Positions 16,359 through 44,272 of a stretch of 45,354 nucleotides of DNA are shown one piece after another. Each line of letters opens with the position of its first letter. The first letter of the stretch is position 1. The stretch is from Azospirillaceae bacterium (GTDB lineage Bacteria; Pseudomonadota; Alphaproteobacteria; Azospirillales; Azospirillaceae): the NCBI GenBank assembly GCA_028277115.1, contig JANQHG010000188.1, positions 1 to 45,354 on the forward strand. Direction: 5' to 3'. The position numbers were made by a program, and so were the translations under genes. The notes under the pieces were generated by a model. It saw nothing but the letters and a program-made list of their open reading frames with translations, made no database searches and was not told the DNA's origin.

Positions 16359-17735
16359 ATGACCCACAGCGGCGACCCCCTGCCCGGCGGCCCCGCCGTC
16401 GCGCCGCTCGGATGGCTCGGGATCGCCCGGCTCGGCCTGGTCCAGACCGCGCTCGGCGCGATCGTCATCCTGTGCACCTCGACCATGAACCGGGTCATGG
16501 TGGTCGAACTCGGCCTGCCCGCCCTGGTCCCCGGGCTGCTGGTCGGCTTCCACTTTGCGATCCAGCTCGCGCGCCCGCGGCTCGGCTACGGCTCCGACCT
16601 CGGCGGACGGCGCACCCCGTGGATCATCGGCGGCATGGCGATCCTCAGCACGGGCGGCATCCTCGCCGCGGTCGCGATTGCGGTGATGACCGCCTCGTTC
16701 GCCGCCGGCATCGCAGTCGCGATCGTCGCCTTCTTCCTGATCGGCATCGGGGTCGGCGCCGCCGGGACCACGCTCTTGGTCCTGCTCGCCAAACGCACCG
16801 CCCCCGGCCGCCGCGCCGCCGCCGCGACCATCGTCTGGACCATGATGATCGTCGGCTTCGTGGTCACCGCCACCATCGCCGGCGACTTCCTCGACCCGTT
16901 TTCGATCGCCCGTCTGATCACGGTCACCAGCGCGGTCGCGCTCGTCGCCTTCCTGGTCAGCATCGTCGCGGTCTGGGGGGTCGAGCAATCGCGCCACCAA
17001 AGCCCCGCCGACGACCCGGGCGAGCCGGCCAAACCCAAGGTGCCGTTCCGGGTTGCGCTCGCCCAGGTCTGGGCCGAACGGCGCGCCCGCCGGTTCGCGA
17101 TCTTCGTCTTCGTCTCGATGATCGCCTATTCGGCCCAAGACCTGATCCTCGAACCGTTCGCCGGCGCGATCTTCGGCTTGACCCCCGGTGAATCGACCAA
17201 GCTCGCCGGCATCCAACACTCGGGCGTCCTGCTCGGCATGGTCCTGGTCGGCATCGCCGGCAGTACGGTGATCGGCCCCAAGATCGGCACCATGAAAGGC
17301 TGGACGATCGCCGGCTGCCTCGCCTCGGCGCTGGCGCTGACCGCGCTCGCGATCGCCGGCATGATCGGACCGCCGTGGCCGCTCTTGCCGTCGGTGTTCG
17401 CGCTCGGCGCCGCCAACGGCGCATACGCAGTCGCGGCGATCGGGTCGATGATGGGCCTCGCCTCGTCCGGGCGGGAATCGCGCGAAGGCGTGCGTATGGG
17501 GGTCTGGGGCGCGGCCCAGGCGATCGCCTTCGGCGCCGGCGGCGTGCTGGGAACCGCGGCGGTCGATCTGACCCGCTACCTGGTCGGGTCGCCGGCCGCC
17601 GCTTATAGCCTGGTGTTCGCCGGACAAGCCATCCTATTTGTCTATTCGGCACATCTGGCGGCGAGAATCGAGCAAGACGAGGCCGAGCGCGCGGCACCCG
17701 CGTCGGCCATGGGATTGGTCGGGGCCGGGGACTGA
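16359..17735 (+). CDS. PucC-family MFS protein of the bchG-bchP operon (Bch2-like)
   Basis: The product is 458 residues with about 12 membrane segments. It carries the PucC/LhaA signatures STMNRVMVVELGLPALVPGL, ARPRLGYGSDLGGRRTPW and MMGLASSGRESREGVRMGVW. The ATG at 16359 follows AAAAAAGGGG with 8 nt spacing. In Rhodobacter the corresponding gene between bchG and bchP is known as orf428/bch2. Its family is linked to light-harvesting complex assembly or bacteriochlorophyll delivery, but its exact role is less clear than that of LhaA. The open frame upstream of 16359 is a shadow of bchG. Confidence 0.93.
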   Translation: MTHSGDPLPGGPAVAPLGWLGIARLGLVQTALGAIVILCTSTMNRVMVVELGLPALVPGLLVGFHFAIQLARPRLGYGSDLGGRRTPWIIGGMAILSTGGILAAVAIAVMTASFAAGIAVAIVAFFLIGIGVGAAGTTLLVLLAKRTAPGRRAAAATIVWTMMIVGFVVTATIAGDFLDPFSIARLITVTSAVALVAFLVSIVAVWGVEQSRHQSPADDPGEPAKPKVPFRVALAQVWAERRARRFAIFVFVSMIAYSAQDLILEPFAGAIFGLTPGESTKLAGIQHSGVLLGMVLVGIAGSTVIGPKIGTMKGWTIAGCLASALALTALAIAGMIGPPWPLLPSVFALGAANGAYAVAAIGSMMGLASSGRESREGVRMGVWGAAQAIAFGAGGVLGTAAVDLTRYLVGSPAAAYSLVFAGQAILFVYSAHLAARIEQDEAERAAPASAMGLVGAGD

Positions 17736-17744
17736 CGCCGGGGG

Positions 17745-17822
17745 CAAAGGCGCGCGCCGCCCCCCCCTTTGCACCCCCCGCCAAGGGGCCGAAGGCCCCC
17801 TGGACCCCTGCCAAGAGAATCC
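17745..17822. repeat. GC-rich dispersed repeat, copy C
   Basis: The spacer between the PucC-like gene and bchP contains C8-9 and C6 runs and the palindrome AAGGGGCCGAAGGCCCCCTGG. It resembles the GC-rich family at 1.6, 21.6 and 40.7 kb in composition and in the GGGGCC/GGCCCC stem, though alignment is looser than for copies A, D and E. Confidence 0.45.
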
Positions 17823-17845
17823 AATGGGTGGAGTGGAGGTCGGTC

Positions 17846-19039
17846 ATGGCACAACTTGATACGTACGATGTGGTGGTGGTCGGGGGCGGGCCGGCCGGGG
17901 CAACCGCGGCAACGGATCTGGCGCGGGGCGGCAAATCTGTCCTGCTGCTCGACCGCGACGGGCGGATCAAGCCCTGTGGCGGTGCGATCCCGCCGCGGCT
18001 GATGCGCGACTTCGAAATCCCGGAGAGCCTGCTCGCAACCAAGGTCTACGGCGCCCGGATCATCGCGCCGAGCGGGCGAACCGTCGATATGCCGATCGAC
18101 AACGGCTTCGTCGGCATGGTCGACCGCGAGGTGTTCGACGAGTGGCTGCGCCAGCGCGCCGCCTTCGCCGGGGCGGAGCGGCGCACCGGGATCTATGAGA
18201 AAATCAGCCGCGACGGCGACGACGGCGCGACCGTCCACTACCGCGCACCCGGACAAGAGTCGGGCGAGACCACCCAAGTCCGCGCCAAGGTGGTGATCGG
18301 CGCCGACGGCGCCCGCTCAGCGGTCGCCCGCCAGGAACTGCCGGCGGGCGAAGAGGTGCCGAGCGTCTTCGCCTACCACGAAATCGTCCAAACCCCGCCG
18401 GCCGACAGCGGCTTCGACGGCACCCGCTGCGACGTCTATTACCAGGGCGAGCTGTCACCCGACTTTTACGGCTGGGTGTTCCCCCACGGCGACAAGATCA
18501 GCGTCGGCGTCGGCACCGCGCACAAGGGCTTTTCGATGCGCACCGCCACCGCGGCGCTGCGCCGCGCGGCCGGGCTCGAGGCGTCGGAAACCCACCGCTG
18601 CGAGGGTGCACCGATCCCGCTCAAGCCCCGCAAGACCTGGGACAACGGCCGCGACGTCCTGGTCGCCGGCGACGCGGCCGGCGTGGTCGCCCCGGCCTCG
18701 GGCGAAGGCATTTACTACGCCATGCTCGGCGGCCGGGTCGCCGCCGAGGCCGCCCGGGACGCGATCGCCACCGGCGACGCCCGCGCGCTCGCCCAGGCGC
18801 GCAAGCGCTACATGAAAGCCCACGGCCAGGTGTTCTGGGTTCTCGGGCTGATGCAGCACTACTGGTACGCCAACGACGGCCGGCGCGAACGCTTCGTCAG
18901 CATCTGCCGCGACCGCGACGTCCAGCAGCTGACCTGGGACGCCTACATGAACAAGGAGCTGGTACGCGCCAAGCCGATGGCGCACCTGCGCATCTTCATG
19001 AAGAACATCGCCCACCTGACCGGGGTGGTGCCGGCATGA
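17846..19039 (+). CDS. bchP: Geranylgeranyl reductase BchP
   Basis: This 397-residue FAD-dependent reductase saturates the geranylgeranyl tail of bacteriochlorophyll to phytyl. The FAD dinucleotide-binding motif VVVGGGPAGATAATDLARGG is at the N-terminus. DGARSAVAR and VLVAGDAAGVVAPASGEGIY are the later family motifs. An in-frame GTG exists at 17828, but GGAGG at 17834-17838 sits 7 nt before the ATG at 17846, which is preferred. The stop overlaps the tspO start (ATGA). Confidence 0.97.
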   Translation: MAQLDTYDVVVVGGGPAGATAATDLARGGKSVLLLDRDGRIKPCGGAIPPRLMRDFEIPESLLATKVYGARIIAPSGRTVDMPIDNGFVGMVDREVFDEWLRQRAAFAGAERRTGIYEKISRDGDDGATVHYRAPGQESGETTQVRAKVVIGADGARSAVARQELPAGEEVPSVFAYHEIVQTPPADSGFDGTRCDVYYQGELSPDFYGWVFPHGDKISVGVGTAHKGFSMRTATAALRRAAGLEASETHRCEGAPIPLKPRKTWDNGRDVLVAGDAAGVVAPASGEGIYYAMLGGRVAAEAARDAIATGDARALAQARKRYMKAHGQVFWVLGLMQHYWYANDGRRERFVSICRDRDVQQLTWDAYMNKELVRAKPMAHLRIFMKNIAHLTGVVPA

Positions 19040-21691: not shown

Positions 21692-24600
21692 TCACCCCAC
21701 CCGAGCCTGGCCAAGAAAGCCGCCGGCACCGCTCGGCGGCAACGGCCGGCTGAACAGAAACCCCTGCCCATTCTCCACCCCAAGCGTCGCCAACCGCGCC
21801 GCCTGGTCTTCGGTCTCGATCCCTTCGGCCACCAGGTCGCGGCCAAGCGCGCGCGCCAACGCGACGATCGTGCGCACGACCTCGAACGCCTCGTTGGTCT
21901 CGGTCATCCGGATCACGAACGAGCGGTCGATCTTGAGCGTGTGAAACGGAAACCGGTGCAGATACGCCAGCGACGAATAGCCGGTGCCGAAGTCATCGAT
22001 CGACACCTTGACCCCGAGCCCGATGATCCGGCGAAGCGCTTCGGCGACCCGTTCCGGATGGTCCATCACCGTGCTCTCGGTGACCTCGAGCTTCAACAGC
22101 CCGGGCCCGATCCCGGCCGCCGTGGTCGCCTGGACCACATCGCGTTCCAGCCGGTCGATATCGGCGGCGAACTGGCGGCCTGAGATATTGACCGCGACCG
22201 GCACCACCGTGCCGTGGAGCCGCTGCCACGCCGCGATCTGGGTGCACGCGGCCGCGATTGCCCAGCGGCCCATTTCCTCGATCAGGCCGGTTTCCTCGGC
22301 CAGCGGGACGAAGTCGCCCGGCGACACCATGCCGCGTGCCGGATGTTCCCAGCGCATCAACGCCTCGAACCCGGCGAGCCGCCGGCGCGCCAGGTCGATG
22401 ATCGGCTGGTAGACCAGCCGCAGCTGGTCGCCTTCCTCGATCGCACAGCGCAGCTCGGTCGCAAGGTCAAACCGCCGCACCGCGCGCGCCTCGAGCGACG
22501 CCTCGAACCGCGCAGCGCGCGCCCCGCCCGCCTCTTTGGCGGCATGCACCGCGAGATCGGCGTTGCGCAGCACGGTCGCCGCCTCGGGCACCGGCGGTGC
22601 CGCCGCGACCAGGGGCGCCAGCGCCACCACCCCAAGGCTCGCGGCCAACACGACGTCGCGCCCGTCGATCGGCACCGGCTTGGCGATCAAGACCATCAGA
22701 TGATCGGTCATCGCGGCGACCGCGGCCGCATCGTCGTCGAGCCCCGGCATCAACACGGCGAACTCGTCGGCACTGAGCCGGGCGACGGTGTCGCCCGGGC
22801 CGGCGACCCGCTCGAGCCGGCGCGCGATCGCGATCAACACCCGGTCCCCGGCAGGCTGGCCGAGCCCGTCGTTGACCATCCGAAAGCCGTCGAGATTGAG
22901 CCGGATCAGCATGCCGTCCGAACGGCCGCCCGCGCGCACCAGCGCGCCCAGCACCTGGGTCAACCGGTCGGTCAGGAGCGCCCGATTTGCAAGACCGGTC
23001 AACCCGTCCTCGAACGCCTGGACGATCGCGTCCTTTTCGGCGCGTTTGCGAAAGGTGATGTCGGTCTGCGACCCGGCGATCCGCCGGGCCCGGCCGGTGT
23101 CGTCGCGCACCGCAAGCCCGCGCGCCAGCATCCAGCGCTCGCCGCCGTCGGGGTGGGTGACCCGATACTCGATCGCCAGCTGGTTGCTGGTGCCCGCGGT
23201 GTGGGCGGCGATCGCCGCCTCGACCGTGGTGCGGTCATCGCCGCGGATGCGTTCAAGCCAGTCGGCCGGCCGCGCCCGGACGGCCGGCGCGCCGTCGGTC
23301 GCCGGCGGCTCAAGCCCCATCATCGTGTACCAGCGCGGCGAGTAATAAACCTTGCCGGTCTCGAGGTCCCAATCCCACAGCCCGTCGTTGGCGCCGCGCG
23401 CCGCGAGCGCGTAGCGTTCCTCGCTGATCCGGAGCGCCTGTTCGGCGTGCCGGCGCTCGTCCTCTTCCGCGCGCACCCGCGCCCAATAGGCGATCCCGGT
23501 GTTGAGCCCGAGGGCCAGCGTCGGCACCACGAACCCGACCCAAAGCCCCCCGACCGTGAACAGAGCCGTGTTCGCCGCAGCCCAGGCCGCGAGCAGCGCG
23601 AAACCGCCCGGGATCACCCAGGCGGTCGCAAGCCCGCCCGCGATCGCCGCCGCCGCCGCGCCGAGCCCGACGACCAAGAGCAACTCGAGCCCGTCGACCC
23701 AATCGGGCCGCGCCAGATGGTCGCCGGTAACGATGCGCGCGAAGATCGAGGCGTTGCGCTCGACCCCCGGCAACCCGCTGGTGAACGGGGTCGCGAAGCT
23801 GTCGTCGATCCCGAGCACCGAAGCGCCGATCAAGACCGCCCGGTCGCGGAACAGCGCCGGGTCGAGCCCGCCCTCGATCAGGTCGATCAGGGAATAGGTC
23901 GGAAAGCTGCCGGCCGCCCCGTGATAGTTCACAAGATGGCGCATCCCGCCGTCGGTCGGCACGAACCGGTCGCCGAGCGCGATCCCGCGGCCGAGGTGGA
24001 GCACCATCTGGTCTGGGGCGAGGCCGAGATAGTGGCGCGCGGTCTCGAGCGACAGCGACGGGAAATAGTCCCAGTCATACGCGAACACCGGGAAGTCGTA
24101 GCGCAGCGTCGAGTCGCTGTCGAAGAGCACGCTGACATGGCCGAGCCCGGCGGCACCGGCGGCCAGGCCGGCCAAAGGCGTCAACGCGCCGGTCGGCCGC
24201 GGCAGCGCGACCTCGCCCCCGCCCGGCGGTTCGTGGAAGATCCGGATCGCCGCCCGCTGGGCCTCGGGCGTCAACGGGTCGACCGCGTCGGGGTCGGCGG
24301 CGGCATCGAAGGTGAAGGCGAACGGCACCACCACCCGACCGGACGCTGCGATCGCCTCGGCCAGACGCTGGTCGGCGCCGATCGACCGGTCGCCCGGCGC
24401 CGGCTCGGCGGCGGCATCGGGCGCCGGGTCGTCCCGGCCGGCCCCGGCCGGATCGCCCGGGTCCCCGGGCGCGTCGCCCGGTTGGTCTGCGCTTGCGGAC
24501 GCCGCCGCGACCGATCCGTCGGCGCCGTCCGCCGGTCGCTCCGCGTCGCCCCGCGGCCGCTCGGGCTCCAGCAGCAAGAGATCGAACGCGATCACCCGGG

Positions 24601-24928
24601 CGCCGGCCGCGGTCAAGCGATCGACCGCGGTCGCGAGGTGCCGGCGCGACACCGGCCATCGCCCGAGCCGGGCAATCGTGCGGTCGTCGATCATCACGAT
24701 TGCGGTCTCAGGCCCCGGCGCGGTCGGCCCGCGCAGCTGGAAGCGCAGGTTGAGGCTTTCGGCCTCGATGTTGCGAAGGAAGCCGATCCGGTCGGCAAAC
24801 GGCTGGAGCGCCAGCACCGCGACGGTCGCCGCCGCCGCCAGCCCCAGACGCCGCCGCCGGGCCGCACGGCGCCGCGCCGACACGGTGTCGGTCGGCGCGG
24901 CGGTCCGACGATCCCGGCGGCGCGGCAT
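21692..24928 (-). CDS. CHASE2-PAS-GGDEF-EAL protein, probable c-di-GMP phosphodiesterase
   Basis: The product is 1078 residues. An N-terminal membrane helix (about 27-45) leads into an extracytoplasmic CHASE2 sensor (about 50-395) with the typical FDLLLLEPERP and VLIGASVLGIDDSFATPF. Three membrane helices follow at about 400-475, then PAS (about 510-640), GGDEF (about 645-805) and EAL (about 820-1068). The GGDEF signature is changed to S719-A-D-E-F723, so cyclase activity is doubtful. The EAL domain looks intact: E855-A-L, NISGRQF, IDDFGTGYSSLAYL, KIDRSF and AEGIET. Net c-di-GMP breakdown is therefore predicted. The CHASE2 part carries an Asp/Ala/Pro-rich insert near 126-185. It starts 6 nt after the FecR-like gene and is probably co-expressed with it. 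Confidence 0.93.
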   Translation of the reverse strand: MPRRRDRRTAAPTDTVSARRRAARRRRLGLAAAATVAVLALQPFADRIGFLRNIEAESLNLRFQLRGPTAPGPETAIVMIDDRTIARLGRWPVSRRHLATAVDRLTAAGARVIAFDLLLLEPERPRGDAERPADGADGSVAAASASADQPGDAPGDPGDPAGAGRDDPAPDAAAEPAPGDRSIGADQRLAEAIAASGRVVVPFAFTFDAAADPDAVDPLTPEAQRAAIRIFHEPPGGGEVALPRPTGALTPLAGLAAGAAGLGHVSVLFDSDSTLRYDFPVFAYDWDYFPSLSLETARHYLGLAPDQMVLHLGRGIALGDRFVPTDGGMRHLVNYHGAAGSFPTYSLIDLIEGGLDPALFRDRAVLIGASVLGIDDSFATPFTSGLPGVERNASIFARIVTGDHLARPDWVDGLELLLVVGLGAAAAAIAGGLATAWVIPGGFALLAAWAAANTALFTVGGLWVGFVVPTLALGLNTGIAYWARVRAEEDERRHAEQALRISEERYALAARGANDGLWDWDLETGKVYYSPRWYTMMGLEPPATDGAPAVRARPADWLERIRGDDRTTVEAAIAAHTAGTSNQLAIEYRVTHPDGGERWMLARGLAVRDDTGRARRIAGSQTDITFRKRAEKDAIVQAFEDGLTGLANRALLTDRLTQVLGALVRAGGRSDGMLIRLNLDGFRMVNDGLGQPAGDRVLIAIARRLERVAGPGDTVARLSADEFAVLMPGLDDDAAAVAAMTDHLMVLIAKPVPIDGRDVVLAASLGVVALAPLVAAAPPVPEAATVLRNADLAVHAAKEAGGARAARFEASLEARAVRRFDLATELRCAIEEGDQLRLVYQPIIDLARRRLAGFEALMRWEHPARGMVSPGDFVPLAEETGLIEEMGRWAIAAACTQIAAWQRLHGTVVPVAVNISGRQFAADIDRLERDVVQATTAAGIGPGLLKLEVTESTVMDHPERVAEALRRIIGLGVKVSIDDFGTGYSSLAYLHRFPFHTLKIDRSFVIRMTETNEAFEVVRTIVALARALGRDLVAEGIETEDQAARLATLGVENGQGFLFSRPLPPSGAGGFLGQARVG

Positions 24929-32609: not shown

Positions 32610-35324
32610 TTACGAGTCCCAACCTTGGACCGGCAGCTCGATCGTGAAGATCGCACCACCGCGCGGATGCTCTGCGGTCGCCGCCGCCGTATTGTCCTCG
32701 ACCCAGATTCGACCGCCGTGCAGACGCACGATGCGCTCGACGATGGCAAGGCCGACCCCGGTGCCCGGTACCCGCCCGTCACGCACCTCGATCCCACGAT
32801 AGAGCGGATGAAAGATCCGTTCCCGTTCGTTGGTGGGCACGCCGCAGCCGGTGTCGGCAATTCGGAGCAAGACCCGGCCCTCGACGGTCGCCACACTGAC
32901 CTGTACGTGCCCTCCGGGCGGTGTGAACTTGATCGCGTTGCTGAACAGGTTACGGATCACCTCGACCATCAACCCTGCATCTCCGGGAAAGCTAACATCG
33001 CTGTCCGAAAAGCCGATCTCGATCCCGTGTTCGCGCGCGATCTGGGCAACCTCGCCGATCGCCTCGCCGATCAAATCGGCGGTCCACAGCGGCACGAGCT
33101 TCAGGTCCGCCTCGCCGGCCTCGATCCGAACCAAGGCCTGCATGCGTTCAAAAGAGTGGCCCATGTTGTCGACGACCCCGCGCGCCAGCACCACCGCCTC
33201 AAGGGCGTTCGGCTTGCCTTTGACCAGGCGACGTTCGGTCAACCCGAGAAACACGTAGAGCTCTTGGAGAAAGTTTCCGAGCTGATGCATGACGTTGAGC
33301 ACCAGCGCCTCGGCGACCCGACGCGCCTCCTCGGCCATCCAGGCGCGGCCCTCGGCGCGCCGGCGCGCCTCCTCGGCGGTGGCGTCGGAGATCAGCGCCA
33401 TCACCAGGGTCGTCCCGTTTTCGCTGACGCGGGTGAGACTGAGCGAGATCGGGACCGTGCCGCCGGTGCGGGTGCGCGCCTGGAGCACGCCGTCCGAGCG
33501 AACATGGGCGGACACCGGTGCCTCGAAAAACGCGTTTATCGCCGGGCAGACGCCCTTCGTGCCCGCCAAAGGAAGGATGTCGTCGAGCGGCACGCCGATC
33601 AGGGCCCCGCTGGCGTAGCCGAACAGTTCGTGGGCGGCGCGGTTGGCAGTCACGATGGTGCCGTCGCCGTCGACCAGAACCACCCCTTCCCGAAGTCCCT
33701 CGAGCAGATGCGCCTGCTTGTCTGCCAGATTGCGGCGAGCCTGTTCGGCTTCGGTCTGCGCCGTGATGTCGACGAAGAAGCCGAGGACGCTCTGCACCTG
33801 CCCGTCGTCGTCGCGTTCATACACCGTGTCCCGCGCGTGGACCCATCGCCATTGCCGGTCGAACCCCAAAAACCGGTACTTGACTTCGATCACGGTGCCG
33901 TCTTCGGACGCCAGGATCCGATCGAAATGGCTTTCAACTCGCGCCCGATCCTCGGGATGGTAGAGTGTCTGGAACTCCTGAGCTGAGAGTGCGTTCAGCT
34001 GTTCACGGGTCCAACCGGTCATCCGTGTGTATTGATCGTTGACAAGCTCAAGACAGCCTTGCTTGACATTGAACACTCTGATACCAAACGAGGATGTGAT
34101 AACACCTTTGGCAAACCGCTCACTTTTGAGCAATCTCTCCTGCGCCTTCTTGAGAGATGTAATATCGGTTGTGACACATAGACCCTCAACAACCTTTCCG
34201 GCGTCATCGCGGATCGGTACAGTCCGGACCAGATAGACCCGGCCTTGATTGGCGTGTTCATACTCGGAGGGTTCTCCGGCAAGGGCCTGCCGATAACTCG
34301 TGTCGACCTTTCGCAGGTCCTCTGGATACAAAAATAGCTCTCGGATGCTTCGACCTTCCATGGCGGAAACCTGCAGTCCAGCGTCCTCCAAGCCGGCCCC
34401 GCGGGCAAAGGTGATCCGGATGTCATCGCCGTCGGCACTGAACATGACCGCTGCCGCCGGCAGATGGGCTGCGAGGGTGGTCAGTCGCTGCTTGGTTTTG
34501 CGCAAGCGTTCCTGGGTTTCGACCTCGATCGAGATATCGAAATGGGAGACGATCGCACCGGGTTGACCGCCGTGCGGCCGGCAGGCGTGCAGGCGCCACC
34601 ATCGATGATACCGGCCGTGTTTTTTCGCATAGAGATGGGTGAAACTGTCGAGTCGCCCGGTCAACACCGACCGGAGGCCGGTCGCGGCCGGAGAGCCCGG
34701 AGTTTGGCGCAGGCAGGCCGCCGGATAGTCGTCGCCGAGGCTGGCCGTGCCCCGAAATCCGGGTCCCGTGTACGCGAGGTTGACCTTGCGCACCCGGCCG
34801 GCGGCGTCGAGCAGGAGCGCCGGATAGGGCAAGGAATCCAGCAAGAGTTGCCGCTCGGCGTTGAGTTCGTCTTGTAGACGCTGCATCGCCGCCTCGGCGG
34901 CGGCCGTGCGTCGGCGTGCCACTCCGGCTTCGATCGTCGAACGGATCAACGTCCCGAACAACGGCTCGCGCGGGATCGGCTTTTCCAGAAACTCCTGTCC
35001 CCCCGGCCGGCCGTCGGACCGCCGTCGCATGAACTCGGCGGCGAGCGACGTCGAGCCGTGGGCGGTCAGCATGATGACCGGCACTTCGGAGTCTTGGCGG
35101 CGCACCGCCTCGAGTACGTCGATACCCGAAAGCCCGGGCATCTCTTGATCGAGCAGGACGAGGTCGATCGTCTCGAGACCAACGTCATCGACGATCGCCA
35201 AGGCCGCCTCACCCGACTCGGCCAGGACCGGCTGGTATCCGAGCTGGCGCAACCTGGCGTCCAGCATGTCGCGGACACCTGGCGTGTCGTCGACCACGAG
35301 AACCCGTGACTGTGCCGGCGCCAT
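32610..35324 (-). CDS. Hybrid sensor kinase: receiver, four PAS-like domains, histidine kinase
   Basis: The product has 904 residues from the ATG at 35324, which overlaps the preceding stop by one base (TGATG). The frame remains open far upstream, but only as a shadow of that gene. Order: receiver (about 5-140, Asp59 in LVLLDQEMPG), PAS-like domains at about 175-290, 300-415, 430-550 and 565-685, then a dimerisation helix with His680 in an atypical VMHQLGNFLQEL box. The ATPase has NLFSNAIKFTP, DTGCGVP and GTGVGLAIVERIVRLHGG. It has no membrane segment, so it is a soluble sensor. The stretch near 34010-34350 is visibly richer in A+T than the rest, suggesting one PAS module was acquired separately. 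Confidence 0.93.
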   Translation of the reverse strand: MAPAQSRVLVVDDTPGVRDMLDARLRQLGYQPVLAESGEAALAIVDDVGLETIDLVLLDQEMPGLSGIDVLEAVRRQDSEVPVIMLTAHGSTSLAAEFMRRRSDGRPGGQEFLEKPIPREPLFGTLIRSTIEAGVARRRTAAAEAAMQRLQDELNAERQLLLDSLPYPALLLDAAGRVRKVNLAYTGPGFRGTASLGDDYPAACLRQTPGSPAATGLRSVLTGRLDSFTHLYAKKHGRYHRWWRLHACRPHGGQPGAIVSHFDISIEVETQERLRKTKQRLTTLAAHLPAAAVMFSADGDDIRITFARGAGLEDAGLQVSAMEGRSIRELFLYPEDLRKVDTSYRQALAGEPSEYEHANQGRVYLVRTVPIRDDAGKVVEGLCVTTDITSLKKAQERLLKSERFAKGVITSSFGIRVFNVKQGCLELVNDQYTRMTGWTREQLNALSAQEFQTLYHPEDRARVESHFDRILASEDGTVIEVKYRFLGFDRQWRWVHARDTVYERDDDGQVQSVLGFFVDITAQTEAEQARRNLADKQAHLLEGLREGVVLVDGDGTIVTANRAAHELFGYASGALIGVPLDDILPLAGTKGVCPAINAFFEAPVSAHVRSDGVLQARTRTGGTVPISLSLTRVSENGTTLVMALISDATAEEARRRAEGRAWMAEEARRVAEALVLNVMHQLGNFLQELYVFLGLTERRLVKGKPNALEAVVLARGVVDNMGHSFERMQALVRIEAGEADLKLVPLWTADLIGEAIGEVAQIAREHGIEIGFSDSDVSFPGDAGLMVEVIRNLFSNAIKFTPPGGHVQVSVATVEGRVLLRIADTGCGVPTNERERIFHPLYRGIEVRDGRVPGTGVGLAIVERIVRLHGGRIWVEDNTAAATAEHPRGGAIFTIELPVQGWDS

Positions 35325-36805
35325 CACTCGGCCCTCGCGGCGGTCGGGGTCGGGGTCGCCGGACCGGTCAGCGGCAGACGGACCGTGAACAGGGCGCCGC
35401 CCCCCGGTGCATCGGTCAGCGTCAGCGTGCCGTCGTGCGCCTCGACCAGCGCTTTGGTGATCGGCAAGCCGAGGCCGGTTCCGTCGGCGCGGCGCCGGCC
35501 GCTCGCGGTCTGCTCGAAGGCACGGAACACCCGCGTGCGGTCTTTCTCGGGGATGCCGGGGCCGGTGTCGCGCACGTGCAGGAGAAGCGTGTCGCAATCG
35601 ACCGCCAGCGACAGCACGACCTCGCCACGCTCGGTGAACTTGACCGCATTGCCGATCAGGTTCCACAGAACCTGGCGGAGCCTTTGCGGGTCCGCGATGA
35701 TCTGGCGCCGGTCGTCGTCCGGCAGGTCCGCGAACTCCGTGCGGAACGACAGCATCTTGTCGGCCGCCAGCGGTTCGAGCTGGGTCATGACCTCCCGGGT
35801 GAGCGCGACCGGACAGAGCGGCTGCACCCGCAAGGTCAGGCGGCCGGCTTCGATCCGGGTGAGGTCGAGCAGGTCTTCGACCAGGTGCGTCAGATGCTCG
35901 GCCGCGTCGAACGATTTCCGGCAATAACCGGCAGCGGTCGCCGGGTCGGGAAACCGGTCGGGGTCCTGCAGCATGTCGAGCAGGCCGAGAATTACCGACA
36001 ACGGCGTCTTGAGCTCGTGGCTGACCATGCCGACGAAGCGGGATTTGGCGCGGTTGGCGGCGTCGGCCGCTTGGCGGGCCCGGACCAGTTCGGTGACATC
36101 GCTCGAGATGTGAATCACCCCGCCGTCGGGGGTCCGGCGCTCGGTCACCCGCACCCACGTGTCACCCGGCAGGTGCTGGAGAGCCGGCGCGGGGTCCGGG
36201 TCGTCGGCCGCCGACGCCGATGACAGCGCCGGTCTTAACCCGGTGTCGCCGTACAAGTCGGTGAAGCGCTGGTTTCCGAGATCAAGGTGCAATGAGCCGT
36301 CGAGCGTGGGTCGGAAGAAGGCGATCCCGTCTTCGAGCGCGTCGAGCGCGCCGATCAGGCGTTGCTGGGCCCGCGCGGCCCGCTGCACTGCCGCGCGAAG
36401 GGCGCGGGCACTGGCAACCCGATGGGTGACCCGTCTGATCGCGTCGATCACCGCAGCTCTGGTGAGGGCCGGAACCTTCGACAAGAAGTCGTCGGCGCCG
36501 GCCCGCCAATAGTCCAGGACCAATTCCGACTCATTAAATCCAGTGATCACGACGATGGCCCCCGAGAATCCGCTTGCCCGTAATCCTTTCAAAAGCTCGA
36601 TTCCATCCTGATCAGGAAGATGGTGGTCAAGCAGGATCACATCCGGAGCGGTTGTCGTGATCGACTCCATCGCTTCGGCGGCCGAGGCGGCCTCGCTAAC
36701 CTGGGCTGCATAGCCGCGAAGAAAGGCCCTGAGAAGGAGCCGAGTGGTCGCATCATCTTCGACAATAAGAAGGTGACAGTGCTTTTCAATCAATGGCTGC
36801 ATCAT
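35324..36805 (-). CDS. Receiver-PAS-histidine kinase
   Basis: The product is 493 residues from MMQPLIEKHCHLLIVEDD. The receiver (about 10-130) has Asp60 (VILLDHHLPDQDG) and a Lys in FLSKVP. A PAS-like segment follows at about 155-245, then HisKA with His263 (MVSHELKTPLSVIL). The ATPase has NLIGNAVKFTERGE, DTGPGIP and GTGLGLPITKALVEAHDG. All catalytic boxes look intact. An open frame to 36976 exists, but the ATG at 36805 has AGAAGG about 10 nt upstream and a promoter-like -10 box just beyond. It is the first gene of a three-gene phosphorelay operon. Confidence 0.93.
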   Translation of the reverse strand: MMQPLIEKHCHLLIVEDDATTRLLLRAFLRGYAAQVSEAASAAEAMESITTTAPDVILLDHHLPDQDGIELLKGLRASGFSGAIVVITGFNESELVLDYWRAGADDFLSKVPALTRAAVIDAIRRVTHRVASARALRAAVQRAARAQQRLIGALDALEDGIAFFRPTLDGSLHLDLGNQRFTDLYGDTGLRPALSSASAADDPDPAPALQHLPGDTWVRVTERRTPDGGVIHISSDVTELVRARQAADAANRAKSRFVGMVSHELKTPLSVILGLLDMLQDPDRFPDPATAAGYCRKSFDAAEHLTHLVEDLLDLTRIEAGRLTLRVQPLCPVALTREVMTQLEPLAADKMLSFRTEFADLPDDDRRQIIADPQRLRQVLWNLIGNAVKFTERGEVVLSLAVDCDTLLLHVRDTGPGIPEKDRTRVFRAFEQTASGRRRADGTGLGLPITKALVEAHDGTLTLTDAPGGGALFTVRLPLTGPATPTPTAARAE

Positions 36806-36832
36806 CGCTCGGCAACCTTCTGACGGTTTCCG

Positions 36833-36861
36833 ATTATAAGGGTGTCGCAACACAACCCAAA
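36833..36861 (-). promoter_or_regulatory. Candidate promoter of the phosphorelay operon
   Basis: On the minus strand a perfect TATAAT (36838-36833) is preceded by TTTGGG with a 17-nt spacer. The predicted start leaves a leader of about 20 nt to the ATG at 36805. The -35 match is weak. Confidence 0.4.
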
Positions 36862-37524
36862 GTAGGAGATCATGACCCGGAAACATCCGTTTGTGACCCC
36901 CTTTGCATACCGTGAACCAACGTAGCCGCTGATGAGCATAGATTAAACTCTTTGGTACGAGAACCCATGTGATCACGTTAAATTGATGGCAACCCAGCCA
37001 AGAGAGTCATCTCTGCACGATCTGGAGAGGACCGAGCCGGGATTACCCTTCTTGGAAGAAATCATCTGTATCTTATTCAATTTATGCTGCCCACCGTTGT
37101 TATAATTACTGACAATCGCCAATCGATACCGATCACCTTAGCCCTTACGAAAAGGAACGACCCCTCAAGGTGTCCTTCATGATGACTTAATCCCTGGTCA
37201 TAACCTAGATGTGGTATGAACAACTGGCGAGCGCTCTAGGTTTGGGAACGATGGACTCACGAGTAGCCTGGGGCAATCGGTACCCAAGCATCGGAGAGTA
37301 TCCAAGTATCTTCCTTAACACGGATATGCGTGACATGCATGCCAGCCATCTTTCGATTGCAGCCCTGGACATGATGGTCGGTACCACTTTTCTGACTTCT
37401 TGATTGGCCAGGCGTTGGCACAAACCAATCGGTTGATTTCCGCACAGGCCAACAAGCATGATTGATTAACTTCTAAACAACCAAGATTTCGTGGTGTGGG
37501 ACATGCTTGCGTTTTGAGTTGCTT

Positions 37525-38373: not shown

Positions 38374-38457
38374 GCCCGCCGGTCGCGGTCCCGCGAGTCG
38401 GGCGGGCTGAGAACATACCCATCGAACCTGATCCGGATCATGCCGGCGAAGGGAGCT
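38374..38457 (+). promoter_or_regulatory. TPP riboswitch (THI-box aptamer)
   Basis: All conserved parts of the thiamin pyrophosphate aptamer are present in order. These are GGGGTGCCC (38379-38387), a long P3 stem CCCGCC/GGCGGG, CTGAGA (38407-38412), ACCC, CCTGATCCGGATCATGCC (from 38427) and GCGAAGGGA ending near 38454. The closing GCT/AGC pairs frame it. It precedes an ABC importer gene whose ribosome-binding site GAGGAG is at 38478-38483. GCCGGCG inside the aptamer (38442-38448) can pair with CGCCGGC at 38468-38474, just before that site, which gives a candidate switching helix. TPP is expected to repress, most likely at translation, since no T-run terminator is seen. Confidence 0.96.
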
Positions 38458-38493
38458 TGCGGCGCCACGCCGGCAACGAGGAGATGTGTCCCG

Positions 38494-39735
38494 TTGCGTC
38501 AGTCCGTGCGGTCGGCGGGTGTCCGCCGTTTTGCGGCCGTTTGCCTTGCAAGCGCCGTTGTCTTGGTCTCGGCCGCCCCGGCGGCTGCGGCGTCGGCGCC
38601 GGTCTATGTGCCGGTGCTGGTGCCTTTGACCGGTTTTCTCTCACTTGAGGGCACGAGCCAGCGCAACGGTGCCATGCTTGCGCTCGGCCTCGCGCCGACC
38701 GAGGCCGGGGTCCATGCCGAGGTGTTCGACACCGGGACCTCGCCGGAAGGGGCGGTGACCGCGCTCGAGCGAGTGATCGGGCGCGACGATGTCGTCGCGA
38801 TCGCCGCCAGCATGCTCGGAACCCAGATGCTGGCGATGCGCCCGCTCGCCGAGGCCTATCGGGTGCCGCTGATCACCGTATCGGGTACCGCCTCGGTGAC
38901 CGGACCCGACACTCGCTATGTCTTCCGCTTCTTTCCAGCCGACCCGGTGGCGAAACGGGCCCACGCCCGTTATGTGGTCGAGACCCGGGGGTTTCGGCGG
39001 CCGGCGCTGATCACCCAGACCACCGCCTATGGCCAAAGCGGGCGGGCGCACCTGCTGGAGGCGTTCCGCAGCCTCGGCGCCGAGGTGGTCGCCGACGAGG
39101 TGATCGACCCGACGGTGCGCGACATGCTGCCGGTGTTGACCCGGGTCGCCGCCGGCGGGCCCGACGTTTTGGTGCTGCATCTCCATGCCGGGTCGACCGC
39201 GCTGGTGATCCGCCAGGCACGCGCGATCGGACGGACCTGGCCGATCGTCGCCGGCTCGGCGATGCACCAGCCGAGCACCGCGGCGCTGCTCGCGCCCGAG
39301 GAGTTGGCGGGGGTGTGCGCCGAGACCGCGTCGTCGCCAATCTCCGAAGACCGGCCGGGCATGGCCGCGTTCGTCGCCGAGTACCGCGCGCGGTTCGACA
39401 GCGAGCCCGATGCCTTTGCGCTTGGCCAGTATGACGGCATGAACATGGTGCTGGACGCGATCCTGGGCGGCGCGCGCACGGCCGAGGCGGTGCGCGCGGC
39501 GCTGGCCGAGGGGACCCACCGCGGGCTTGCGATGACCTATCGCTCGGACGGCACCGGCAACATGGCGCACACGGTTGCGATCATCTGTTACGACGGCACC
39601 AGCCGGCGGCCGCGGGTGGTTGCGCGTGCCGGTGACCCGGTGGCGCCGCCCGATCCGACCGGGCCTGCCGAACCGGTTGCGCCGACCGAGGCCGCTGAGC
39701 GCACCGACGTTGCCGATGCGCCGCCGGGCCGATGA
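38494..39735 (+). CDS. Periplasmic substrate-binding protein, LivJ/Peripla_BP_6 type, TPP-regulated
   Basis: The product is 413 residues if started at TTG 38494, 10 nt after GAGGAG. This start gives a normal signal peptide (RQSVRSAGVRRFAAVCLASA, cleavage after ..PAAAA). The frame is open from 38440, but that ATG lies inside the riboswitch; GTG at 38506 is another option. The mature protein has the type-1 periplasmic fold: VPVLVPLTGFLSLEGTSQRN, a VVAIAASMLGTQMLAMRPLA block, VLVLHLHAGSTALVIRQARA and FALGQYDGMNMVLDAIL. LivJ relatives bind branched-chain amino acids, amides or aromatic compounds. Control by TPP suggests thiamine, a thiamine precursor or a breakdown product here. The C-terminal ~50 residues are a Pro/Ala-rich tail. 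Confidence 0.92.
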   Translation: MRQSVRSAGVRRFAAVCLASAVVLVSAAPAAAASAPVYVPVLVPLTGFLSLEGTSQRNGAMLALGLAPTEAGVHAEVFDTGTSPEGAVTALERVIGRDDVVAIAASMLGTQMLAMRPLAEAYRVPLITVSGTASVTGPDTRYVFRFFPADPVAKRAHARYVVETRGFRRPALITQTTAYGQSGRAHLLEAFRSLGAEVVADEVIDPTVRDMLPVLTRVAAGGPDVLVLHLHAGSTALVIRQARAIGRTWPIVAGSAMHQPSTAALLAPEELAGVCAETASSPISEDRPGMAAFVAEYRARFDSEPDAFALGQYDGMNMVLDAILGGARTAEAVRAALAEGTHRGLAMTYRSDGTGNMAHTVAIICYDGTSRRPRVVARAGDPVAPPDPTGPAEPVAPTEAAERTDVADAPPGR

Positions 39736-39773
39736 CCGGCGGCCCGGGGGCGCTGCGGTCGTGACCTGACCTG

Positions 39774-40640
39774 ATGGCCCAGCTTCTGGTCAACGGGCTC
39801 GCGCTCGGCGCGGCGTATGCTTTGGTCGCGCTCGGCTTCGTGCTGATCGTCAATGCGACCGGGGCGGTGAACTTTGCCCAGGGCGACCTGGTGGTCGCCG
39901 GTGGGTTTCTGGCGGTTGCGGCGGCGCCTTTGGTGCCGGTACCGGCGCTGGTGCTGGTGCCGGCGGTGGCGGCGTTGATGGCGGTGATCGGGCTGGTGCT
40001 GTCGCTGGTCGCCTATCTGCCGCTGAGCCGGCGGCCGCCGGTCGCCGTGTTCATCAGCACGATCGCGGCCGGTCTGATCCTGGAAAACGGGGTGTTGGTG
40101 CTGTTCGGGCCGGCGCCGCGGTCGGCGCCGCCGTTGATCGGCGGCGGGGTGGTCGAGCTCGGCGGCCTGGTGGTGGCGCGGCAGTCGCTGGCGATCATCG
40201 GGGTTGCGGTTGCTTTGATTGCGGGTCAGCAGCTGTTGTTTCACCGGACCCAGCTCGGTCGATGGCTGCGGGCGACCGCGCAGGACGCCGAGATTGCGCG
40301 GGCCTGCGGGATTCCGGTGGTGTCGATGGTGCTGTTGACCTTTGCGCTTGCCGCCGCCTATGCCGGGACCGCAGGTCTTTTGCTTGCCAACCAGTTTTTC
40401 ATCACGCCGTCGGATGGCGGCGACTTGATGTTACGCGCTTATATTGCGGTGACGATTGGCGGATGGGGGTCGGTCGGCGGGGCGGTTGCCGGTGCGGTGT
40501 TGATTGCGGTGTTCGAGACGGTGGTGGCGGCGCGGTTGGGGCATCCGGTGGCGACCGGTTTGTTGTATGGAGTGGTTTTGGTGATTTTGGCGGTTCGCCC
40601 GCGCGGTTTGTTCGGCGAAGCCGCGGGTCGGCGCGCGTAA
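39774..40640 (+). CDS. ABC importer permease, LivH type
   Basis: The product is 288 residues with about eight membrane helices and the LivH pattern. This includes LLVNGLALGAAYALVALGFV, NFAQGDLVVAGG, FHRTQLGRWLRATAQDAEIA (cytoplasmic coupling loop) and GGWGSVGGAVAGAVLIAVFE. It forms one half of the transmembrane channel with the LivM domain of the next gene. It starts 38 nt after the binding-protein gene. Its TAA stop overlaps the next ATG by one base. No strong ribosome-binding site is visible. Confidence 0.95.
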   Translation: MAQLLVNGLALGAAYALVALGFVLIVNATGAVNFAQGDLVVAGGFLAVAAAPLVPVPALVLVPAVAALMAVIGLVLSLVAYLPLSRRPPVAVFISTIAAGLILENGVLVLFGPAPRSAPPLIGGGVVELGGLVVARQSLAIIGVAVALIAGQQLLFHRTQLGRWLRATAQDAEIARACGIPVVSMVLLTFALAAAYAGTAGLLLANQFFITPSDGGDLMLRAYIAVTIGGWGSVGGAVAGAVLIAVFETVVAARLGHPVATGLLYGVVLVILAVRPRGLFGEAAGRRA

Positions 40641-42409
40641 TGTGGCGGGGGTCAAGGGGGCGAGCCCTCTTGCGGGGGTTCGGGGGCAGCGCCCCTGACG
40701 ACGGCCGCAAGGCCGCTCTGCCGATCACTGTGGGGATTGTTGTTTGGCTGGTCTCCGGCCTCGTCGCCACCGGCACCCCCTACGACCTGCGGGTTCTGAC
40801 GGTTGCGGGCATCTACGCCCTGGGCGCGCTCGGCTACCAATTGATCTTCGGCTTCGCCGGCGCCTTGTCGCTTGCGCAGGGCAGCTTTTTCGGCCTCGGC
40901 GCCTACGTCACCGCGATCCTCGGCACGCGCTATGGTCTCGACGGCGCCGCGACGTTGCCTTTGGCGATGCTGGTCCCGACCGCGCTTGCGCTGGTGGTCT
41001 CGTTGCCGGTCATGCGTCTTCAGTCCCATTACGTCGCGCTCGCGACGCTCGGGATCGGCCAGGTGGTCAGTCTGGTCGCGATCCACTGGATTTCGGTGAC
41101 CGGCGGTTCGAACGGCTTGGCCGGGGTTCCGGGCTTTGCGGTGTTCGGGTTTGCGGTGCCGCGCGGGGTGCCGCTGTGCCTGGTGGTGTGGGCGTTGGTC
41201 GGGCTCGGCGTGCTCGGGGCGGCATGGCTCGGCCGAGGGCGGCGCGGTCTGGTGCTGGCGCAGATGCGCGCCGACCCGGTGGTTGCGCGGAGCCTCGGGA
41301 TCGACACCACGCGGCTCGGCGTCGGGTTGTTTTTGGCGAGTGCGGCGTATGGCGGTGCCGCCGGTGCCTTGATGGCACACACGCAACATGTGGTGTCGCC
41401 GGCCGCGGTCGGGTTCGGGATGATGGTGTCGTTCCTGACCATGTGCGTGGTCGGCGGCCGCGGGCGGATCGCCGGTGCCGTGCTCGGCGCCGTCTTGTTG
41501 GTTCACCTGCCGGAATGGCTGCGTGGCTTTGCCGAGGCCGAGCGGCTGCTTTATGGGCTTGGCCTGCTGGCCGCGATCGTGCTGGCGCCCGAGGGCTTGG
41601 TCGGCCTGATCGAGGCGGCGGGGGCACGCCTGGTCGGCGGCCGGCGCGCGCCGGGCGAGCGCGCGCGCCCCGCGCCCGCGGCACCGTTGCCGGCGGCGGC
41701 CGCAGCACCGGCACCGTTGGTCGTCGAGCGGCTGAGCCGCCGGTACGGCGGCATCCGGGCGGTCGATGATTTGTCGCTGACGATCGCGCCGGGCAGCCTG
41801 GTCGGGGTGATCGGGCCGAACGGGTCGGGCAAGACCACGCTGGTCAATCTGATCACCGGGCTTGCGGAGCCCGATGCCGGCGTGGTGCGGCTCGGCGACC
41901 GGCGGCTGTCCGGTCGCGCGCCCGAACGGATCGCGCGGCTTGGGGTTGCGCGCAGCTTTCAGGCCGGCGGCTTGCCGGGCGGCTTGACCGCGGCCGAGGC
42001 GGTGGTGGTCGCGCTCGCATCCGGCACGCCGGCGCGGGTCGCCCGGGCCTGTCTCGACCGGGTCGGGGCCGGGGAGGTCGCCGAGGTGCCGTGCGCCGCG
42101 CTGCCGGCGGGGGCGCGGCGGCGGGTCGAGCTGGCGCGGCTGTTGGCGCGGGCGCCGCGGGTGTTGCTGCTCGACGAGCCGGCGGCCGGGCTCGATGCGG
42201 ACGAGCGGGCGCGGCTGGCCGAGTTGTTGGTCGCCGAACGCCGGCAGGGCCGCAGTCTGGTGGTGGTCGAGCATGACGTGCCGTTCCTCGCCGCGATCGC
42301 CGACCGGGTGATCTGTCTCGACCGCGGCCGGCTGGTGTTCGACGGCCCGGCGGCCGCGGTCGCCGCGGACCCGGCGGTGCGCGCCGCCTATCTGGGCTGC
42401 GCGCCGTGA
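40640..42409 (+). CDS. LivM permease fused to LivG ATPase
   Basis: The product is up to 589 residues. Residues about 31-325 are a LivM-type permease (LTVAGIYALGALGYQLIFGF, ALSLAQGSFFGLGAYVTAIL, GGRGRIAGAVLGAVLL). After a Pro/Ala linker, residues about 350-589 are a LivG-type ATPase. Walker A is GPNGSGKTT (Lys398), Walker B LLLDEP (Asp512, Glu513), and the switch His545 is in VEHD. The ABC signature is degraded to LPAGA (488-492) where LivG usually has LSYGQ. Residues 2-28 are encoded by a copy of the GC-rich repeat, so translation may begin instead at GTG 40730 (GIVVWLVSGLVATG). The stop overlaps the next start (GTGA). Confidence 0.93.
   Translation: MWRGSRGRALLRGFGGSAPDDGRKAALPITVGIVVWLVSGLVATGTPYDLRVLTVAGIYALGALGYQLIFGFAGALSLAQGSFFGLGAYVTAILGTRYGLDGAATLPLAMLVPTALALVVSLPVMRLQSHYVALATLGIGQVVSLVAIHWISVTGGSNGLAGVPGFAVFGFAVPRGVPLCLVVWALVGLGVLGAAWLGRGRRGLVLAQMRADPVVARSLGIDTTRLGVGLFLASAAYGGAAGALMAHTQHVVSPAAVGFGMMVSFLTMCVVGGRGRIAGAVLGAVLLVHLPEWLRGFAEAERLLYGLGLLAAIVLAPEGLVGLIEAAGARLVGGRRAPGERARPAPAAPLPAAAAAPAPLVVERLSRRYGGIRAVDDLSLTIAPGSLVGVIGPNGSGKTTLVNLITGLAEPDAGVVRLGDRRLSGRAPERIARLGVARSFQAGGLPGGLTAAEAVVVALASGTPARVARACLDRVGAGEVAEVPCAALPAGARRRVELARLLARAPRVLLLDEPAAGLDADERARLAELLVAERRQGRSLVVVEHDVPFLAAIADRVICLDRGRLVFDGPAAAVAADPAVRAAYLGCAP
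40648..40722. repeat. GC-rich dispersed repeat, copy E, at the livH-livM junction
   Basis: CCCTCTTGCGGGGGTTCGGG, GGCAGCGCCCCTGACGACGG and CCGCAAGGCCG align in order with the reverse complement of 21521-21575. The copy lies just after the ATG at 40640 and keeps that frame open, adding about 25 Arg/Gly-rich residues if translated. Confidence 0.75.
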
Positions 42410-43173
42410 GAGCGCTGCCGCCGCTGCTCGAGGTCACCGGGCTCGCCGCCGGCTATGGCGGCGGACCGGTGATCGCCGGGGTCGGGTTTGCGGTGCCGCC
42501 GGGCGGCGTGGTCGCGCTGCTGGGCGCCAACGGGGCCGGGCGGTCGACGCTGCTGCGCGCGCTGGTCGGCCTGACCCCGGTCGCGGCCGGGGAGATTTGT
42601 TTTGCCGGGGCGCCGATCACCCGGCTCGGCGTGGCGGCGCGGGTCCGGCGCGGCATCGGCTATGCGCCCGAGGGCCGGCGGGTGTTTCCGGGCATGAACG
42701 TGCGCGACACTCTCCTGGCCGCGAGCCGGGCGCCGCGCGCGGGCCGGCGCGCCGCACTGGACCGCGTGTTCGACCTGTTTCCCCAGCTTGCGGCGTCGGC
42801 GGGCCGGCGCGCCTGGCAGCTGTCGGGCGGCCAGCAGCAAATGCTGGCGCTTGGCCGGGCGCTGATGGGCGAGCCGCGGCTGGTTTTGCTCGACAGCCCG
42901 TCGCTCGGCCTGGCGCCGCCGGTGGTTGCCGACGTGTTCGGCGCGATCGCGGCGATCGTCGCGGACGGGGTCGCGGCGGTGATCGCCGAGGACCGGCTGG
43001 CCCCGGTCGACCGGGTGGCGGACCGCGCCCTGGTGCTGCGCGCCGGCCGGGTGGTCGCGGACACGGCGCTCGCCGCGCTGTCGGAGGATCGGCTGGCCGA
43101 TCTCGCGCTCGGCGCGGCCGGCGCCTCGGCGGCGGCGTCCACCCGGCTTGCCTCACCCTTTGAGCCCGGCTAG
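42406..43173 (+). CDS. ABC importer ATPase, LivF type, with degenerate Walker motifs
   Basis: The product is 255 residues from a GTG start coupled to the previous stop. The LivF pattern is clear (LLEVTGLAAGYGGGPVIAGV, IGYAPEGRRVFPGMNVRDTL, SLGLAPPVVADVFGAI). The signature LSGGQ (139-143) is intact. Walker A reads GANGAGRST, with Arg46 where a Lys is expected. Walker B reads LLDSP, with Ser164 in place of the catalytic Glu. It should therefore hydrolyse ATP poorly by itself. It can still complete the composite site formed with the LivG domain of its partner. The C-terminal ~25 residues are Ala/Ser-rich and variable. Confidence 0.94.
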   Translation: MRALPPLLEVTGLAAGYGGGPVIAGVGFAVPPGGVVALLGANGAGRSTLLRALVGLTPVAAGEICFAGAPITRLGVAARVRRGIGYAPEGRRVFPGMNVRDTLLAASRAPRAGRRAALDRVFDLFPQLAASAGRRAWQLSGGQQQMLALGRALMGEPRLVLLDSPSLGLAPPVVADVFGAIAAIVADGVAAVIAEDRLAPVDRVADRALVLRAGRVVADTALAALSEDRLADLALGAAGASAAASTRLASPFEPG

Positions 43174-43225
43174 TGTCTCGGCCGGTCGAACGGCATGGGC
43201 GCTTTGTGAGCGGAGGCGAATGACC

Positions 43226-44272
43226 ATGGTTGGACGGACACAGACCGGCGCACGGTCGATCGCCCTTGGCGCTTTGGCGGCGGCGGTGCTGGTCGCGCTC
43301 GGGGCGCTCGGTGCCGGTGGCGCGCTTGCCCAGGTCGCCCAGCCGACCGGCCGGTGGCAGGCCCAGCCGGTCGCGGCCGAAGACGGCAGCTTCGCCTATT
43401 GCCTGACCGAGAACCGCTATTCGAACGGCCAGGTGCTCGGGATTGCCCGCAACCCGACGGGCGAATTCATCATGCTGCTCGGCGTGCCCGACGGCAACCT
43501 GCCCGAGGGCAAGGGCGCGCGCCTGCGGATCAAGGTCGACCAGCGGGTCGATCAGCAGGCGACCGGCATTTTCCGCAACGCCGAAACCATCGAGGTGCCG
43601 ATCGGCCGCAACAACGCGCTCTATGAGGCGTTGATGGCCGGGATCACGCTGACGGTGGCGGGGCCGAGCGATCAGGTGCAGTTCGCGCTGAAGGGCACCC
43701 GCCGGGCGCTGACCGACCTTCGTCAGTGCGCCGAACGGCGCGGACGCGGCAGCCGGCCCGCGGCGGCACGTGCGGGCGGTGGCGGCGGCGGCGGCGGCGG
43801 TGGGCGCAGCGGCGGCGGTGCCGGTGCGGCCGGCTTGCCGGGCTCGGTCGCGCAGATTTTGGCGGCGGCGCGGATGGGCGCGGTGGTGCCGGTCCAGGCG
43901 GCCGACGGCTCGGTCGCCTGGGGCTTCGGCCCGATCATGGGGATCGTCGAGCGCGAGACCGCGCCCGAGGGCCAAAGCGTCGCCAGGCTTGGCGACACCC
44001 GGCTCGACAAGATCGAGGAACGCTGCGACGGCAGCTTCGATCGCTCGCCCGGCCGGGTCGAGTCGCTGGCCAACGCGAGCGTCCAGACCGCCAGCGCCGA
44101 ATGCCGCACCGGCGGCAACCGGATTTATCTTGCGCTGTTGTTCGTGCTGACCAAGACCGGCAACGAGTTCATCACCTTCACCCACGAGACCAACGCCGAG
44201 GGCAAGGACGCCGCCGACCGCAGCCGCGACCGTATGCTGGAGACGATCAAGGCGCTCGCCGACCGCGGCTGA
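43226..44272 (+). CDS. Secreted two-domain protein of unknown function
   Basis: The product is 348 residues. GGAGG at 43212-43216 is 9 nt before the ATG at 43226; an ATG at 43220 is too close. A signal peptide (about 1-36, ending GGALAQ) is followed by a domain to about residue 170 (FAYCLTENRYSNGQVLGIAR, LRIKVDQRVDQQATGIFR). Next is a Gly-rich linker (about 183-203), then a second domain to the end (GSVAWGFGPIMGIVERETAP, IYLALLFVLTKTGNEFITFT). Four Cys in the mature part may form disulfides. I do not recognise the family. It follows the transporter genes after 52 nt and might be co-transcribed, but nothing else links it to thiamine. Confidence 0.8.
   Translation: MVGRTQTGARSIALGALAAAVLVALGALGAGGALAQVAQPTGRWQAQPVAAEDGSFAYCLTENRYSNGQVLGIARNPTGEFIMLLGVPDGNLPEGKGARLRIKVDQRVDQQATGIFRNAETIEVPIGRNNALYEALMAGITLTVAGPSDQVQFALKGTRRALTDLRQCAERRGRGSRPAAARAGGGGGGGGGGRSGGGAGAAGLPGSVAQILAAARMGAVVPVQAADGSVAWGFGPIMGIVERETAPEGQSVARLGDTRLDKIEERCDGSFDRSPGRVESLANASVQTASAECRTGGNRIYLALLFVLTKTGNEFITFTHETNAEGKDAADRSRDRMLETIKALADRG

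Follow-up and report, generated by a model that had tools for sequence, protein, structure and literature searches.

A TPP riboswitch-controlled HAAT-type ABC importer in Alphaproteobacteria, a candidate importer for the thiazole half of thiamine

What would an ABC importer of the HAAT type, to which the branched-chain amino acid transporters belong, carry when its operon lies behind a thiamine pyrophosphate (TPP) riboswitch? The question is raised by a locus on a 45,354-nucleotide contig of an Azospirillaceae bacterium (the whole stretch analysed, hereafter the window), for which a first-pass annotation had predicted that thiamine, either of its halves or a degradation product enters the cell by a route not described before. 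Our results support such a route and narrow its probable substrate to the thiazole moiety. From sequence comparisons we propose, with moderate confidence, that the operon encodes a TPP-repressed importer for the thiazole half of thiamine, the candidate substrates being 4-methyl-5-hydroxyethylthiazole (HET), its 2-carboxylate (carboxy-HET) or a close relative.

Microbes trade thiamine and its halves, and importers of pyrimidine and of thiamine are known. The exogenous thiazole precursor has been described as entering cells via transport systems of unknown sequence identity (2018 carboxythiazole paper, PMC5899164), and according to the same paper an E. coli thiG mutant requires HET in micromolar amounts. 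The list of B1 vitamer transporters in a 2024 coastal study includes none for thiazole, and the study calls thiazole auxotrophs rare (PMC10881298). The main survey of RNA regulons reports 19 orthologue groups of thiamine or precursor transporters, with no mention of Rhodospirillales, Azospirillum or branched-chain transporters in its main text (PMC3766115). TPP riboswitches and HAAT importers are each of a known kind; for their combination no earlier report was found in the open-access literature.

The riboswitch and the importer operon

The cmscan search of the 45 kb window identified the TPP riboswitch family RF00059 and no second Rfam family. The match spans the full model (1-105) with a score of 60.2 bits against the gathering score of 54.3 (E 1.8e-9), so that the complete riboswitch reported by the first-pass annotation was confirmed; the start given there, 38374, falls within the aptamer, 16 bases after its first base (Table 1). 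The conserved TPP core, consisting of CUGAGA, ACCC-U-GAACCUGAUC and GAAGGGA, is complete in the window's aptamer and likewise in those of the orthologues aligned with it.

Table 1. Features of the riboswitch-importer locus (positions in the window).
Feature	Position	Strand	Basis
TPP riboswitch aptamer (THI element), RF00059	38358..38472	+	cmscan above cut-off; kept in orthologues
Shine-Dalgarno-like GAGGAG of the binding-protein gene	38478..38483	+	sequence, fold of the 3' part, leader comparison
Periplasmic substrate-binding protein (SBP), LivJ/Peripla_BP_6 class, signal peptide, TTG start	38494..39735	+	PF13458, E 2.5e-48
LivH-type permease	39774..40640	+	PF02653, E 7e-30
LivM permease fused to LivG ATPase	40640..42409	+	PF02653, PF00005 and PF12399 in a single protein
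LivF-type ATPase	42406..43173	+	PF00005; nearest NCBIfam UrtE/LivF, both under cut-off
X5, conserved gene	43220..44272	+	3' of LivF in Azospirillum and Skermanella, 26-33% identity

When the 3' part of the leader was folded, the GAGGAG and the TTG paired in a CAACGAGG...CCCGTTG hairpin, a putative expression platform of the translational kind; in an alternative fold the GCCGGCG of the aptamer pairs with CGCCGGC further downstream. The TTG is in frame, ten bases past the GAGGAG and level with the ATG of the Azospirillum loci, and it is most likely the start of the SBP gene. In some relatives (L070, L079 and L089) the conserved aptamer end GAAGGGAG itself doubles as Shine-Dalgarno sequence a few bases 5' of the start codon, which argues for translational control. 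The promoter scan found no promoter, and the three terminator-like sites that it listed are all within the coding region. The aptamer would place expression of the operon under TPP control, probably at the level of translation. Because TPP generally represses through riboswitches of this class in bacteria, the direction here would be repression.

The aptamer is followed on the same strand by a complete HAAT-type ABC importer, the four transporter genes being those described in the first-pass annotation and borne out by Pfam, and then by X5. The start codons of the LivM-LivG gene (ATG) and the LivF gene (GTG) both fall inside the stop codon of the preceding gene. The fused LivM-LivG protein has 589 amino acids, and the fusion is retained in the family orthologues. 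X5 gave no match in Pfam or NCBIfam; it follows the operon only in Azospirillaceae, with one exception in all loci with a long enough contig, and is probably the final gene of the operon in this family.

Pfam, AlphaFold2 and Foldseek together gave the make-up of the HAAT family: a LIVBP-like type I SBP, two LivH/LivM-type permease domains and two ATPases. AlphaFold2 modelled the SBP confidently (mean pLDDT 87) with the fold of a type I binding protein, and its best PDB match in Foldseek was 3td9 (TM 0.88), the nearest structures being HAAT binders of amino acids and aromatic acids (3td9, 4gnr, 4ey3). Among Pfam families only Peripla_BP_6 and ANF_receptor matched the SBP, which is therefore not of the ThiB type and showed no match to NMT1/THI5 (PF09084). 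The NCBIfam cut-offs for LivJ, LivH, LivM, LivG and LivF were all missed, with 33.7, 78.6, 123.8, 157.5 and 157.8 bits against 477, 379, 366, 362 and 441, respectively.

In a profile alignment, the Asp of the GDG motif of 3td9, 4gnr and 3ipc, which we take from LivJ and Atu2422 to be the residue holding the amino group of the substrate, aligns with Ser255 of the SBP, at the about 20% identity of a remote sequence alignment. All 31 aligned members have Ser255, and Ser130-Gly-Thr-Ala133, Tyr179, His231 and Gln259 are likewise invariant among them. The serine would speak against an alpha-amino acid ligand and fit a ligand without an amino group, such as a (carboxy)thiazole. An amino-acid importer is thus unsupported, both by the missed curated cut-offs and by the aligned binding-site residue.

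Conservation of the riboswitch-importer pairing

The first-pass annotation had suggested a search for the same riboswitch beside LivJ homologues in other genomes, and the pairing was found in about a dozen families, with many genera among its carriers. In the orthologues from the same family, with identities of 63-66%, the aptamer was present just upstream on the same strand in ten loci out of ten, and it was absent at three paralogues of 27-28% identity. A contig scan detected 80 homologous loci with named organisms (52-69% identity), belonging to Azospirillum, Skermanella, Nisaea, many uncultured Rhodospirillales, Reyranella and some Betaproteobacteria. When these loci were scanned with a covariance model derived from the aptamers of the family, 49 of them had the aptamer directly upstream, and it was placed nowhere else in the loci. 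The class survey, in which 385 genomes were sampled evenly across the Alphaproteobacteria, identified the SBP in 31 genomes, and in 20 of the 27 further survey loci the aptamer lay directly upstream in the same orientation (17 when Rfam was used at its own cut-off). A strict text pattern overlooked many divergent aptamers, and covariance models were used in its place. The aptamer was thus found directly upstream in 69 loci altogether, with intact core bases, some genomes being counted in both the 80-locus and the survey set.

LivH adjoins the SBP in every TPP-controlled locus of sufficient length. On the protein tree of the SBP, presence or absence of TPP control requires 7 changes, in comparison to 33 with shuffled labels. 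A pairing by chance is implausible because these genomes hold only about 2-3 TPP riboswitches each, and yet the aptamer precedes the operon at 10/10, 49/80 and 20/27 loci; with 69 loci of this kind and none at the three distant paralogues, chance was rejected as an explanation.

The homologues without aptamer form mainly two assemblages, one of Betaproteobacteria and their alphaproteobacterial sisters, the other of orphan SBPs in Reyranella-like genomes. The orphan SBPs of Reyranella and its relatives (L092-L109, 52-56% identity) are without TPP control and without LivHMGF, and the locus order suggests that the transporter genes have been lost between the SBP and a pyrE-like gene. In the Betaproteobacteria (L062, L068, L081, L083, L101 and relatives) homologous operons without TPP control adjoin genes for an iron-containing alcohol dehydrogenase, an aldehyde dehydrogenase, a TctC protein and a diiron-like protein, neighbours that suggest catabolic use of a related compound. 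The TPP-controlled copies do not cluster with amino-acid catabolism, in agreement with the substrate class envisaged in the first-pass annotation.

Thiamine genes in the genomes carrying the importer

The window's own genome contains two further TPP riboswitches, one upstream of thiC and the other upstream of thiM-thiE, and its ThiC, ThiM and ThiE all scored above the curated equivalog cut-offs. Neither ThiG (best match 4.3e-5) nor Thi4 was found in the genome, an absence that at an assembly completeness of 93.8% is likely rather than certain; ThiG is accordingly a missing thiamine-synthesis gene of the kind that the first-pass annotation had suggested looking for. As the assembly stands, the organism makes the pyrimidine, can phosphorylate thiazole and join the two halves, and is without a thiazole source only. 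Lacking both ThiG and Thi4, its thiM-thiE pair would need imported thiazole.

The same gap was present in most of the surveyed genomes. ThiG was absent from 20 of the 23 genomes with a TPP-controlled importer, three copies coexisting with it; the resulting 3/23 compares with 184/354 among genomes without the SBP (Fisher p 3e-4) and with 6/8 among genomes whose homologue is without TPP control (p 0.003). ThiG is present in Azospirillum. When only ThiC-containing genomes were considered, the SBP occurred in 6/15 of those lacking ThiG and 5/104 of those having it (p 5e-4). These p-values take the genomes as independent, and the SBP tree gives only 2-3 well-supported independent pairs, so that the comparison of TPP control with ThiG loss by phylogenetically independent pairs had no power. 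Thi4 was rejected as a hidden thiazole synthase: every match was a short dinucleotide-binding motif, and the protein was absent in all genomes checked.

For the pyrimidine half, all 17 inspected genomes had a further TPP riboswitch upstream of ThiC or of a ThiXYZ-type NMT1 importer, the identities of the genes behind these riboswitches having been verified on examples. Fifteen of the 17 had a ThiX-ThiY(-ThiZ) importer whose SBP is of the NMT1/THI5 type and three had thiC, one genome having both; the pyrimidine half is thus covered. Strong ThiE was present in 22 of the 23 importer genomes and in three of the ten ThiG-less genomes carrying ThiB (p 2e-4, cut 1e-50); at the looser cut of 1e-20 the contrast weakened to 22/23 against 7/10 (p 0.07). 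In many of these alphaproteobacteria thiE is situated in a conserved transketolase-GAPDH-aldolase cluster (L157-L176), which is an unusual place, and no alternative thiazole kinase was seen beside thiE in the neighbourhoods examined. Thiamine pyrophosphokinase (TPK) was detected in none of the 23 genomes. ThiM was detected in only two, and most members would therefore have to phosphorylate thiazole with a different kinase or take it up in a different form. ThiC was missing in 16, and in 15 of these ThiG was missing as well, all but one of the 15 being also without ThiM. ThiB never occurred together with the SBP in the 385 genomes (0/31 with and 36/354 without the SBP, p 0.10). Taken together, the importer genomes look built to join the two halves of thiamine, with no source of the thiazole in view other than this importer.

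In the proposed mechanism, scarcity of TPP would leave the aptamer empty, and the SBP and transporter would be translated. The imported thiazole would then be phosphorylated, by ThiM in the window's organism, and ThiE would join the product to the pyrimidine made with ThiC. Once TPP is plentiful, the aptamer would fold and translation would be turned off.

Candidate substrates and known importers

Among the alternatives, import of intact thiamine or thiamine monophosphate by the same TPP-repressed HAAT importer, replacing ThiBPQ, is the most serious, although we consider it unlikely. Thiamine would be the simplest supply for the 15 genomes lacking both ThiC and ThiG, nearly all of which lack ThiM too, and the absence of ThiB from the surveyed genomes with the SBP points the same way. 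It would, however, leave unexplained why ThiE is kept and why ThiC or ThiXYZ is TPP-controlled. The enrichment of the SBP in genomes with ThiC and without ThiG also argues against it, as does the presence of thiC and thiM-thiE without ThiG in the window's genome, which points to thiazole. It is the kept ThiE, the missing TPK and the TPP-controlled ThiXYZ that shift the reading from thiamine towards thiazole; the shortage of ThiM, the three copies coexisting with ThiG, the non-independence of the genomes and the weak ThiE contrast at the loose cut keep thiamine a serious rival.

The shortage of ThiM (missing in 21/23) and the apparent want of another kinase beside thiE would be accounted for if the importer carried thiazole phosphate, or a precursor, for example sulfur- or glycine-derived, for a novel thiazole route. 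This is improbable, since ThiM is present in the window's genome and in G460, and the other synthase type, Thi4, is absent from all genomes checked; to our knowledge no ThiG-independent thiazole synthase besides Thi4 has been described. Even less probable is an importer of the pyrimidine half or of its breakdown products (HMP, formylaminopyrimidine): the 16 genomes without ThiC could use one, but those inspected already own a TPP-controlled ThiXYZ-type importer, and the HAAT operon is also present in ThiC-containing genomes that lack only ThiG. Least probable of all, and very doubtful, is an ordinary importer of amino acids or other HAAT substrates unrelated to thiamine, with the aptamer as a chance or decayed neighbour. 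The betaproteobacterial and Reyranella-type homologues without TPP control, the former next to alcohol and aldehyde dehydrogenases, would fit it, but not the intact aptamer positioned directly upstream in 69 loci and never elsewhere there, nor, as far as the remote alignment can be followed, the loss of the acidic residue for the amino group.

Several known systems share parts with the proposed thiazole importer. LivJ/LivK-LivHMGF has in common with it the SBP fold, the two BPD_transp_2 permease domains and the two ATPases; the window's importer differs in the LivM-LivG fusion, in subunits far under the curated cut-offs, in Ser255 and in the TPP riboswitch. In NCBIfam the LivH permease and the two ATPases come closest to UrtB, UrtD and UrtE of the urea importer UrtABCDE, but the subunits of the window are all under the cut-off, no urea genes were seen nearby and the operon is under TPP control. 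The aromatic-acid SBPs of Rhodopseudomonas palustris (4ey3, 4eyg, 4evq) have the same fold and take carboxylates that are not amino acids; their identity to the SBP is about 20%, their ligands are aromatic acids and no vitamin regulation is known for them. ThiXYZ, too, is an ABC importer under TPP control that takes up one half of thiamine, and it is present in the same genomes, but its SBP family (PF09084) is unrelated and it has a single permease and ATPase type. ThiBPQ, which is TPP-controlled in well-studied bacteria, is also an ABC importer found in thiamine auxotrophs; its SBP family differs, and the two SBPs never occur together in the survey. The proposed thiazole (HET) component ThiW of Gram-positive bacteria is under a TPP riboswitch as well, but it is an ECF S-component without a periplasmic SBP and an unrelated protein.

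If the thiazole reading holds, the operon could be the first transporter of the thiazole moiety identified by sequence in Gram-negative bacteria. It would have been recruited from amino-acid transport within the HAAT family, would be ancestral in a broad alphaproteobacterial group, and would let thiazole auxotrophs join imported thiazole with home-made or imported pyrimidine; this wider reading is advanced more tentatively than the substrate itself. With a candidate recognisable by its riboswitch, the exchange of thiazole could be read from genome sequences, and the survival of many ThiG-less alphaproteobacteria would be explained; the HAAT family would gain a vitamin precursor among its substrates. 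Such genes are likely now annotated as branched-chain amino acid transporters.

One additional locus, L149 (G080:C180:600-6900, minus strand), has a TPP riboswitch (57.7 bits) upstream of a different SBP, which by eye resembles SBPs of the 2-aminoethylphosphonate or iron type and is possibly part of another unrecognised thiamine-related importer. Elsewhere in the window, a pucC-like gene and a geranylgeranyl-reductase-like gene are located at 15807-19039, a possible sign of a photosynthesis gene cluster in this organism. The minus strand at 21692-24928 and 32610-36976 encodes a CHASE2-PAS-GGDEF-EAL protein and putative hybrid histidine kinases with response-regulator domains, the latter recognised by eye.
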